This document shows, piece by piece, positions 47,081 to 48,562 of a DNA stretch of 64,000 nucleotides (positions within the stretch are counted from its first letter, which is position 1; each line of letters opens with the position of its first letter). The notes beneath the pieces were generated by a model that had not been told where the DNA came from, searched no databases, and saw only the letters and a program-made list of their open reading frames with translations. The DNA comes from Photobacterium sp. DA100. GTDB lineage: Bacteria > Pseudomonadota > Gammaproteobacteria > Enterobacterales > Vibrionaceae. A program made the position numbers and the translations under genes. The stretch lies in assembly GCF_029223585.1 (NCBI RefSeq), contig NZ_CP119423.1:434001-498000 (forward strand), written 5' to 3'.

Positions 47081-47404
47081 AGTTAGCCAACCTTTCCTTT
47101 TGTTTTTGACGGCCAGAATTATAAAACAACGCGCATGATGCTTTTGTGATGCCTTCAGCATAATAGGGATGTTAAATAACCTTGGGTTTACTTTTTCTTT
47201 TTTCTATAGCGGTGTGGGCAGATTTTTATTCTGCTGGTGTATGTTATGGGTTAACGTATTGAGAGCGAATATTATTCACGTTTTCTTGCATGGTTTTCAA
47301 TTAATCAAATACTTTTAGAGACTTATGATTATTGAGCGGCTTGATGGACAAAAAAACAGCAAATTTGTCGGCGGGGAATGGGGACTCAAACATGACAATA
47401 TTAG

Positions 47405-47421
47405 GTAGCACGCCGTGCTAC
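47405..47421. promoter_or_regulatory. Perfect 7-bp inverted repeat upstream of the DUF134 operon
   Basis: GTAGCAC and GTGCTAC flank a 3-nt loop. It lies about 65 bp upstream of the 26-bp palindrome. It may be a regulator site or an RNA hairpin. Confidence 0.4.
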
Positions 47422-47485
47422 ATAGATGAAAATGCTGATTGCCATAACTGGACCGATCTGTAAGAAAGCTGCTTTGGATCAAAGA

Positions 47486-47511
47486 TTATTATTGGCATAT
47501 GCCAATAATAA
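47486..47511. promoter_or_regulatory. Perfect 26-bp palindrome, candidate operator of the DUF134-nqrM operon
   Basis: A 26-bp sequence equal to its own reverse complement, with arms TTATTATTGGCAT and ATGCCAATAATAA meeting without a loop. It is centred 43 bp upstream of the DUF134 start codon, inside the expected promoter. The absence of a loop argues for a dimeric protein site rather than an RNA stem. Confidence 0.7.
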
Positions 47512-47541
47512 CGGTTTTAGCCATTACCTTCGTAGCCAGCC

Positions 47542-47853
47542 ATGCCTAGACCGAAAATCCAGCGGCGGATCCGGTGCCGCCCCGCTTATAGTTGCTTCAA
47601 GCCCAACGGGGTACCGATGTCCGAGCTTGACTCCCTGCCATTGGCAGCCGATGAACTGGAGGCCCTGAGACTGGTTGATCTCAACGGGCTCAGCCAGCAG
47701 GACGCAGCACAGGAGCTGGGGGTGTCTCGCCAGACGCTGGGCAATATCGTTGCCGCGGCCAGGCACAAAGTGGCGAGCGCATTGGTAAAAGGTATGGCGC
47801 TGGAGCTGGACAGTGCCGCCACGCCAAACAATGAAAAGGAGCCATCATGTTAG
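47542..47853 (+). CDS. DUF134 (UPF0251) DNA-binding protein
   Basis: 103 residues. MPRPKIQRRIRCRPAYSCFKP is the family N-terminus. A sigma-70-region-4-like helix-turn-helix occupies about 48-70 (LSQQDAAQELGVSRQTLGNI). Family members are predicted regulators often found beside NifX/NifB-type iron-cluster genes. The 26-bp palindrome just upstream is a likely self-regulation site. The stop overlaps the next start by 7 bp, so the genes are coupled. Confidence 0.85.
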   Translation: MPRPKIQRRIRCRPAYSCFKPNGVPMSELDSLPLAADELEALRLVDLNGLSQQDAAQELGVSRQTLGNIVAAARHKVASALVKGMALELDSAATPNNEKEPSC

Positions 47854-48323
47854 TAGCTATCGCCGTCACCCCCAACCATGAGGTGGCCGGGCACTTCGGG
47901 AAAGCCGCCGGCTTTGTTGTTTACGATGAGCAAGGAAGACTGGTTGCCGAGCTGATTAACCATGGGCGCAAAGAGGTTGGGTGCAAACACAAAAAGCAGC
48001 TTCAGGCCCAATTGGCAGCGCACGATGTAAAGACACTCGTGCTCGGCAATGTCGGCCAGCGCTCGTTGGCTCGCTTGCTGCGCGCCGGCTTTGCGGTGTT
48101 CCGAGTACCAAACAGAGCGTCGGTGCAAGATGTCCTGGGCGGTAAGGTTGTGCGGGAGCCATTGCTGGCAGCCGAGCAGGGCCGCCCGTGCAAGCGCGAG
48201 AAAGGCGATTGCGGCTGTGGGTGCGGCAGCAAGAAAGCGGCGAAACCCGCTAAAATTGGTATGACGGTAAGCGGTAATGTCAATGTCACTGGACTGACCA
48301 AGATCGGAGGCTTCAAGCTATGA
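47847..48323 (+). CDS. NifX/NifB C-terminal-type iron-cluster-binding protein
   Basis: 158 residues. It has the dinitrogenase iron-molybdenum cofactor biosynthesis fold: MLVAIAVTPNHEVAGHFGKAAGFVVYDE at the N-terminus and VLGNVGQRSLARLLRAGFAVF in the middle. A Cys-rich tail follows (C115, then DCGCGCG with C122, C124, C126), and C46 is in the core. Members bind iron-sulfur or iron-molybdenum clusters non-catalytically. No other nitrogenase gene is present, so a role in nitrogen fixation is unlikely. The overlap with nqrM suggests iron delivery to Na+-NQR; this is inference. Confidence 0.85.
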   Translation: MLVAIAVTPNHEVAGHFGKAAGFVVYDEQGRLVAELINHGRKEVGCKHKKQLQAQLAAHDVKTLVLGNVGQRSLARLLRAGFAVFRVPNRASVQDVLGGKVVREPLLAAEQGRPCKREKGDCGCGCGSKKAAKPAKIGMTVSGNVNVTGLTKIGGFKL

Positions 48324-48517
48324 CCTACTTGTTCACAGTACTGGTTTTTCTGTTGGTAATTGCTGCGATGGCCATCGGCTGGGTGTTCCGCAAAAAAGCC
48401 ATCCAGGGGAGCTGCGGCGGGCTCGCCAATGTCGGGGTAGATAAGGAGTGTGGCTGCAAGGAGCCATGCGACGAGCACAAGCTCTACCAGATCAGCGAGC
48501 CGGAAGCGAAACAGTAA
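48320..48517 (+). CDS. nqrM: NqrM, Na+-NQR maturation factor
   Basis: 65 residues. One N-terminal membrane helix (about 4-22) is followed by four Cys: SCGGLANVGVDKECGCKEPC with C32, C44, C46 and C50. This matches NqrM, required to insert the iron centre at the NqrD/NqrE interface of the sodium-pumping NADH:quinone reductase. It is normally at the end of the nqr operon with apbE; here it overlaps by 4 bp an iron-cluster-carrier gene. A strong terminator follows. Confidence 0.88.
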   Translation: MTYLFTVLVFLLVIAAMAIGWVFRKKAIQGSCGGLANVGVDKECGCKEPCDEHKLYQISEPEAKQ

Positions 48518-48531
48518 CGGGTGACTGAATG

Positions 48532-48562
48532 AAAAAGCGCAGCTTGCCAGCTGCGCTTTTTT
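48532..48562 (+). terminator. Bidirectional terminator after nqrM
   Basis: A 12-bp stem AAAAAGCGCAGC/GCTGCGCTTTTT with a 6-nt loop, T-run on plus. It also faces the end of the convergent LysR gene. Confidence 0.9.

Follow-up and report, generated by a model that had tools for sequence, protein, structure and literature searches.

In the 64,000-nucleotide stretch of Photobacterium DNA analysed here (the window), a perfect palindrome precedes three overlapping genes, which encode a DUF134 protein, a protein of the NifX fold and a second paralogue of the NQR maturation factor NqrM, here called NqrM2. The arrangement of the locus as one operon with a shared operator is well supported, and the three genes are very likely co-regulated. 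Our main reading, to which we give a probability of roughly 40%, is that a single DUF134-controlled operon joins a NifX-fold holder of iron or of a cluster to NqrM2, which would act as a second maturation factor of NQR or RNF. Because the same genes and the same palindrome recur in related genomes, the grouping is more than chance. The original prediction, in which the middle protein hands iron or a cluster to NqrM and the DUF134 protein controls the set, is partly supported as a whole. No description of such a module was known to its author, and none was found in the literature, as judged largely from titles and abstracts, with subscription papers mostly outside this coverage.

The operon and its NqrM paralogue

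The palindrome (TTATTATTGGCATATGCCAATAATAA, 26 bp, with the core TTGGCATATGCCAA) spans positions 47486..47511 and is the likely operator of the operon. On the forward strand, it is followed by the gene of the DUF134 (PF02001) helix-turn-helix protein, the likely regulator (103 aa; E 6.5e-21), at 47542..47853; by the gene of the NifX/NafY/ORP-fold protein (PF02579; 158 aa; E 6.1e-14), which has a Cys46 and a Cys-rich tail, at 47847..48323; and by nqrM2 (PF04400; 65 aa; E 8.2e-19), whose product has an N-terminal hydrophobic helix, four Cys and the C-terminal sequence LYQISEP, at 48320..48517. Each of the three Pfam matches lies above the curated cut-off. The DUF134 and NifX-fold ORFs overlap by 7 bp and the NifX-fold and nqrM2 ORFs by 4 bp, and through these overlaps the three genes are predicted to be translationally coupled. 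A terminator-like hairpin with a T run is located on the same strand at 48532..48562 (-24 kcal/mol, z -4.1). A consensus scan did not include this hairpin among its calls and returned no sigma-70-like promoter at the palindrome. The overlaps, the four Cys of the window's NqrM, the Cys-rich tail of the middle protein and the flanking palindrome and hairpin had all been described in the original prediction, and the ORF coordinates, the translations and the hairpin energy bear them out. On the opposite strand before the operon, a small ORF (window positions 47315-47482), which may be due to chance, is 56% identical to a match in P. rosenbergii (L006).

According to the accessible text of two reviews, NqrM is a maturation factor of Na+-NQR, and the canonical nqrM gene is located in the nqr operon after apbE (PMC6209661, PMC12174285). 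The 6.0-Mb host genome, in two contigs, contains two NqrM matches: the window copy and a copy elsewhere that lies directly behind apbE in the nqr operon (nqrF-apbE; gene names assigned by reading the translations). The original prediction had named the nqr operon as the usual site of nqrM. Since the canonical nqrM is still present behind nqrF-apbE, the odd site in the window is that of a paralogue, and a relocation of nqrM out of the nqr operon is ruled out.

NqrM2 matches PF04400 with 67.6 bits (cut-off 22) and matches no NqrM model in NCBIfam. It shares with canonical NqrM (DUF539, PF04400) the family profile, the four Cys and a single hydrophobic helix, which was recognized by reading the sequence. 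It differs in being a second copy outside the nqr operon, where the position after apbE is occupied by the other copy, in being paired with the NifX-fold and DUF134 genes, and in its tail, which is LYQIxEP where the canonical tail is charged. Cys 32, 44, 46 and 50, as well as L55, I58 and P61 of the tail, are invariant in 34 aligned rows. The Cys region comes after a basic stretch, which in turn follows the hydrophobic helix. As a basic stretch beside a membrane helix marks the cytoplasmic side (the positive-inside rule), the Cys region of NqrM2 is probably cytoplasmic.

Among the best 120 of 3786 database matches to an NqrM2 profile, 119 have an LYQI-type tail or a near variant, and one has FYQIQEP. 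A database record of Aliivibrio fischeri also contains an NqrM with the LYQIxEP tail. When the same profile was run on 369 genomes of the class, the window NqrM2 scored 128.5 bits, the host's own canonical copy 81.1 bits and other genomes at most 78.2 bits. In 394 genomes of the order, matches with the full tail were also found in other families, at least f188, f190, f191, f192, f193 and f203; canonical copies in this set reach about 91 bits, and the type was therefore assigned by the tail. In an NqrM tree of 118 rows and 70 columns, whose bootstrap had not settled, the LYQIEEP protein of one f203 genome (G537) falls in a group of 72 rows without internal resolution, composed of all NqrM2 rows and six rows labelled canonical. 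Among the latter, L007 and L157 turn out to be NqrM2 proteins whose tails vary, and the other four (L101, L108, L110 and L125) are canonical types from other families. NqrM2 was not recovered as a single clade in this tree: the label needs three changes and none of the bootstrap trees accommodates it with a single one, so a single origin of NqrM2 receives no support from it.

An NqrM2-like protein at L052:7254-7610 lacks the GSCGG motif and keeps CGCQEPC and LYQIREP; the retention of the latter hints that the tail may matter for the paralogue. Elsewhere, a second, strongly altered NqrM-like ORF with most Cys positions changed is located near the module at L049:7913-8386, perhaps decayed or present by chance, and two consecutive NqrM2 copies, the second truncated at its start, are located at L191:5549-6135.

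The NifX-fold protein, the DUF134 protein and the palindrome

The only significant Pfam match of the middle protein is PF02579 (52.5 bits, cut-off 26.3), and no other protein of the host genome matches this model. Its nearest records are from Photobacterium gaetbulicola (91 and 88%). The AlphaFold model has a pLDDT >=90 at 93 of 158 residues, its tail being unreliable from residue 130 on, and all 13 PDB matches obtained with Foldseek at E <0.001 have the NifX/NafY/ORP/MTH1175 fold, in agreement with the NifX-type assignment made earlier from the letters alone. Based on this model, the nearest structures would be ORP (2wfb), the NafY core (1p90), NifX (9ian), MTH1175 (1eo1) and their relatives. 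In contrast to NifX, the protein is far below the cut-off of the NifX equivalog TIGR02663 (28.9 bits against 112) and has an extra Cys-rich tail. Its translation contains Cys46 and Cys 115, 122, 124 and 126. An alignment of 40 rows shows no variation at F17, C46, K49, G70, L74 and L77 and very little at the tail Cys 126; the invariance of Cys46 would be consistent with metal-cluster binding.

By sequence, the protein also shares its domain type with MrpORP of Desulfovibrio, in which a PF02579-type domain binds an iron-sulphur cluster. According to the accessible text of the MrpORP study (PMC6345978), its Di-Nase domain can bind a [3Fe-4S] cluster in vitro, and the isolated domain reaches 44% of the aconitase activation of the full protein; the authors attribute the transferred cluster mainly to the P-loop domain and regard a structural role as possible for that of the Di-Nase domain. 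Unlike MrpORP, the middle protein has no P-loop ATPase domain: it scores 19.1 bits with the MrpORP model (cut-off 450), and the P-loop NTPase fusion is absent.

The DUF134 protein is the only PF02001 match in the host genome (75.2 bits, cut-off 27), and no other member of the set matches a helix-turn-helix profile; its ORF also matches sigma-70 region 4 and HTH_3 at about 4e-6. The residues S62-R63-Q64-T65 (SRQT helix) are invariant in 33 rows, 29 of which have at least two Cys in the first 22-23 residues. For the DUF134/UPF0251 family, we found neither a function nor a DNA site in print, in a literature seen largely as titles and abstracts. The profile and the helix-turn-helix are common to the family and the window protein, which differs from the family as printed in being tied to a palindrome, and this conserved palindrome is what it may bind.

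Within the window, the 12-bp core with up to one mismatch has one match, which by itself is unremarkable because 25 of 100 shuffles equal it. In the host genome there are two exact cores, that of the operon, which is intergenic, and one inside a coding ORF; of the 24 one-mismatch cores, 13 were inspected, all but one of which are located inside ORFs. As only one of the two exact cores is intergenic, we reject, as far as these sites show, the idea that exact palindromes form a larger set in the host genome.

The comparison of loci bears out the palindrome noted before the set as a conserved operator tied to it. With up to two mismatches allowed, the core was sought in a stretch that begins 200 bp before each gene and reaches 90 bp into it. 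Of 85 distinct loci, the window's own left out, 79 have it before the module. As a control, random segments of the same loci reached two mismatches in 3 of 1408 cases and one mismatch in none. Of the 43 tandem loci with NqrM2, 40 have the core at DUF134, one has it at NifX and two (L082 and L188) have it at neither; L082 has an exact core, and its ORF start was extended past it. In convergent loci, the core is always at NifX (18/18, 16 of them with NqrM2) and never at DUF134 (0/18). It is also present in all five loci with NifX alone, in all three with DUF134 and NqrM2 but without NifX, and in three of six with DUF134 alone (absent from L018, L020 and L028). Where loci are rearranged, the core of the palindrome keeps its place with the NifX-NqrM2 unit.

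Pairs of DUF134 and NifX genes without NqrM2 mostly have the same palindrome: of the ten tandem loci, eight have the core at DUF134, four have it at NifX and one (L027) has it at neither, and both convergent loci have it at NifX. These pairs, together with the early Cys residues of most DUF134 rows, would suit a NifX-fold protein that is a metal- or cluster-sensing partner of DUF134, with NqrM2 as one of several targets. We consider this explanation improbable, as NifX has no match in two Vibrionaceae genomes (G029 and G039) in which DUF134 and NqrM2 persist with a near-exact operator, and DUF134 lies outside the NifX transcript in the convergent loci.

In 50 Photobacterium genomes, 51 exact cores were found, 36 beside the DUF134/NifX module and 15 elsewhere; a reversed control pattern gave 11. 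An exact core lies beside the module in 26 of the 42 DUF134-bearing genomes, many of the others having been seen with 1-2 changes, and one exact core is present somewhere in 3 of the 8 genomes that lack DUF134. These two counts speak against a strict link between DUF134 and the exact core.

Gene orders and distribution of the module

The suggestion that nqrM neighbourhoods be compared across Vibrionaceae was followed, and the grouping recurs in relatives, which rules out a strain-specific grouping. Among 150 Vibrionaceae genomes, 94 have DUF134, 95 have PF02579 and 82 have two NqrM matches; given the relatedness of these genomes, the counts are not independent events. DUF134 is present in all 82 genomes with two nqrM genes and PF02579 in 80 of them, the exceptions being G029 and G039, and two nqrM genes occur in 0 of the 56 genomes that lack DUF134. 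Twelve of the 94 DUF134-positive genomes have a single NqrM match (G003, G009, G013, G018, G023, G028, G033, G038, G043, G048, G110 and G134), and one of these, G013, contains an additional degenerate NqrM2-like ORF outside the count of the Pfam search. PF02579 is found without DUF134 in three genomes (G132, G143 and G149). In Photobacterium, 42 genomes have all three genes, and 8 have none of them and a single NqrM. Plasmid records gave no match.

As most of the loci L018-L082 had been fetched by DUF134 or NifX, linkage rates were taken from loci fetched by NqrM2. The fairest set consists of the loci of the 30 best matches to the NqrM2 profile in the order, i.e., 29 loci (L129-L157) with the window's set aside; the profile itself derives from linked loci, and its rows include some from at least five of these genomes (G045, G102, G104, G106 and G112). 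The NifX gene adjoins NqrM2 in 23 of the 29 loci, DUF134 lies within the same 3.2 kb in 22, and five loci (L130, L147, L153, L154 and L156) have neither. With the same profile, canonical-type NqrM loci of the class (L100-L128) have NifX or DUF134 nearby in 0 of 29.

The gene orders were counted over 70 distinct NqrM2 rows, which include the window's, the degenerate L052 protein and the truncated L191 copy; many of these rows were fetched by DUF134 and some loci cover only 3 kb. In 60 rows, NifX precedes NqrM2 on the same strand, often with a 4-bp overlap, rearranged loci included; it is convergent in one row and absent in nine. DUF134 is upstream on the same strand in 45, faces NqrM2 from downstream in 17 and is not nearby in eight. 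Based on these counts, the linkage persists through at least three gene orders. The NifX-fold gene is not obligatory for NqrM2: G029 and G039 have DUF134-NqrM2 with a near-exact operator and no PF02579 match, and NqrM2 does not adjoin NifX in G668, G689, G833, G809 and G664. Pairs of DUF134 and NifX without NqrM2 also occur.

A hotdog thioesterase gene, which has no evident role in iron metabolism, lies near NqrM2 in 26 of the 70 rows. Since NifX is not obligatory and this gene is present in many relatives, the function of the set seems to extend beyond the transfer of iron to NqrM. DUF134 could be the switch of a shared stress regulon in which the NifX-fold protein, NqrM2 and often the thioesterase are independent effectors under cold, metal or sulphur stress, NqrM2 aiding NQR and the NifX-fold protein acting elsewhere without any hand-off. 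The occurrence of the hotdog gene also near DUF134/NifX loci that lack NqrM2, and of NqrM2 and NifX each without the other, points in this direction, as does a temperature response in P. damselae. According to the accessible parts of PMC6312309, an RNA-seq table comparing 25 with 15 C lists VDA_001251 (NifB/NifX domain) at -6.1 and VDA_001252 (NqrM) at -3.0, both genes being lower at the higher temperature; the discussion deals only with the NifX domain, as nitrogen fixation, and the main text has no mention of VDA_001250. The presumed orthology of VDA_001251 and VDA_001252 was judged from their consecutive tags and from a P. damselae NqrM record with an LYQIQEP tail. Nevertheless, the same-strand position of NifX upstream of NqrM2 in most rows, often with overlapping reading frames, is a tighter coupling than a shared switch needs, and we regard a regulon of independent effectors as somewhat unlikely.

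Nine loci (L061, L062, L063, L068, L069, L070, L072, L073 and L079) lack NqrM2 but contain DUF134 and/or NifX genes close to the gene of a PaaI-like hotdog thioesterase (HCxxCG motif), and most of them share the palindrome or have one that differs little from it. The genes are separated by that of a TDT/TehA-type transporter in L068 and by that of a similar-looking protein in L073. In one genome of genus g9, a likely toxin-antitoxin pair, recognized by eye, is located between DUF134 and the NifX gene (L051:6742-7387).

Client of NqrM2 and possible role of the module

Kostyrko et al. reportedly presented NqrM (DUF539) as a Na+-NQR maturation factor in 2016. In the distant genome G537, the only NqrM match is the protein with the LYQIEEP tail, and its gene lies directly behind an apbE-like gene of the nqr operon (297 bits, below the model cut-off of 498; NqrB-F by reading). 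Because of this position, it is plausible that an LYQIxEP-type NqrM serves NQR maturation, and the LYQIxEP tail is plausibly compatible with this function.

The membrane subunits RnfA/RnfE and NqrD/NqrE both belong to one family, PF02508, of which the host genome has four members. This shared family and the divergent tail of NqrM2 would favour an NqrM2 dedicated to the iron site of RnfA/RnfE, canonical NqrM serving NqrD/NqrE. PF02508 matches were counted in 80 genomes, 40 NqrM2 carriers and 40 others, with 7 further non-carriers left out. All 80 have matches, 78 of them four or six, G548 (75% complete) three and G001 two. Copy number does not separate carriers from non-carriers among these genomes and so points to neither NQR nor RNF as the client. 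As non-carriers have the same counts, RNF seems to manage without NqrM2, and the LYQIxEP-tailed NqrM of G537 is situated within an nqr operon; we therefore give little credence to a paralogue reserved for RNF.

In our main reading of the operon, DUF134 would bind the palindrome, whose conservation is observed, and control the NifX-fold protein and NqrM2 together. Cys46 and the Cys-rich tail would enable the NifX-fold protein to hold iron or an iron-sulphur cluster. NqrM2, anchored in the membrane with its four Cys probably in the cytoplasm, would be a second, conditionally made maturation factor beside the NqrM of the nqr operon; it would act on the intramembrane iron site of either NqrD/NqrE or their homologues RnfA/RnfE. 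The parallel change of the consecutive NifX-type and NqrM genes in P. damselae and the cluster binding of the related Di-Nase domain are in line with this reading. The NifX-fold protein may hand iron to NqrM, a direct transfer to NqrM2 being the least certain step of this proposal; alternatively, it may buffer metal for DUF134 or report metal status to it. A more specific version, which we hold to be unlikely, would make the module a dedicated inducible second route by which NQR/RNF receive their intramembrane iron-sulphur site; the NifX-fold protein would then be the soluble donor to NqrM that is missing so far, and DUF134 would be a cluster- or metal-responsive switch at TTGGCATATGCCAA.

A role of the module in iron supply is plausible, and the recurrence of both the grouping and its DNA switch in related bacteria suggests an undescribed second supply route. 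The accessible parts of the NqrM literature covered do not give the source of its iron. A conserved NqrM paralogue, a protein with a cluster-carrier fold and one operator would provide a candidate iron donor and a candidate switch for this process. Additionally, two paralogues share the name 'NqrM' in databases, and the DUF134 family acquires a candidate DNA site and a candidate set of targets. Based on one data set, as far as the accessible text goes, lower temperature may be a natural condition for the module (PMC6312309).
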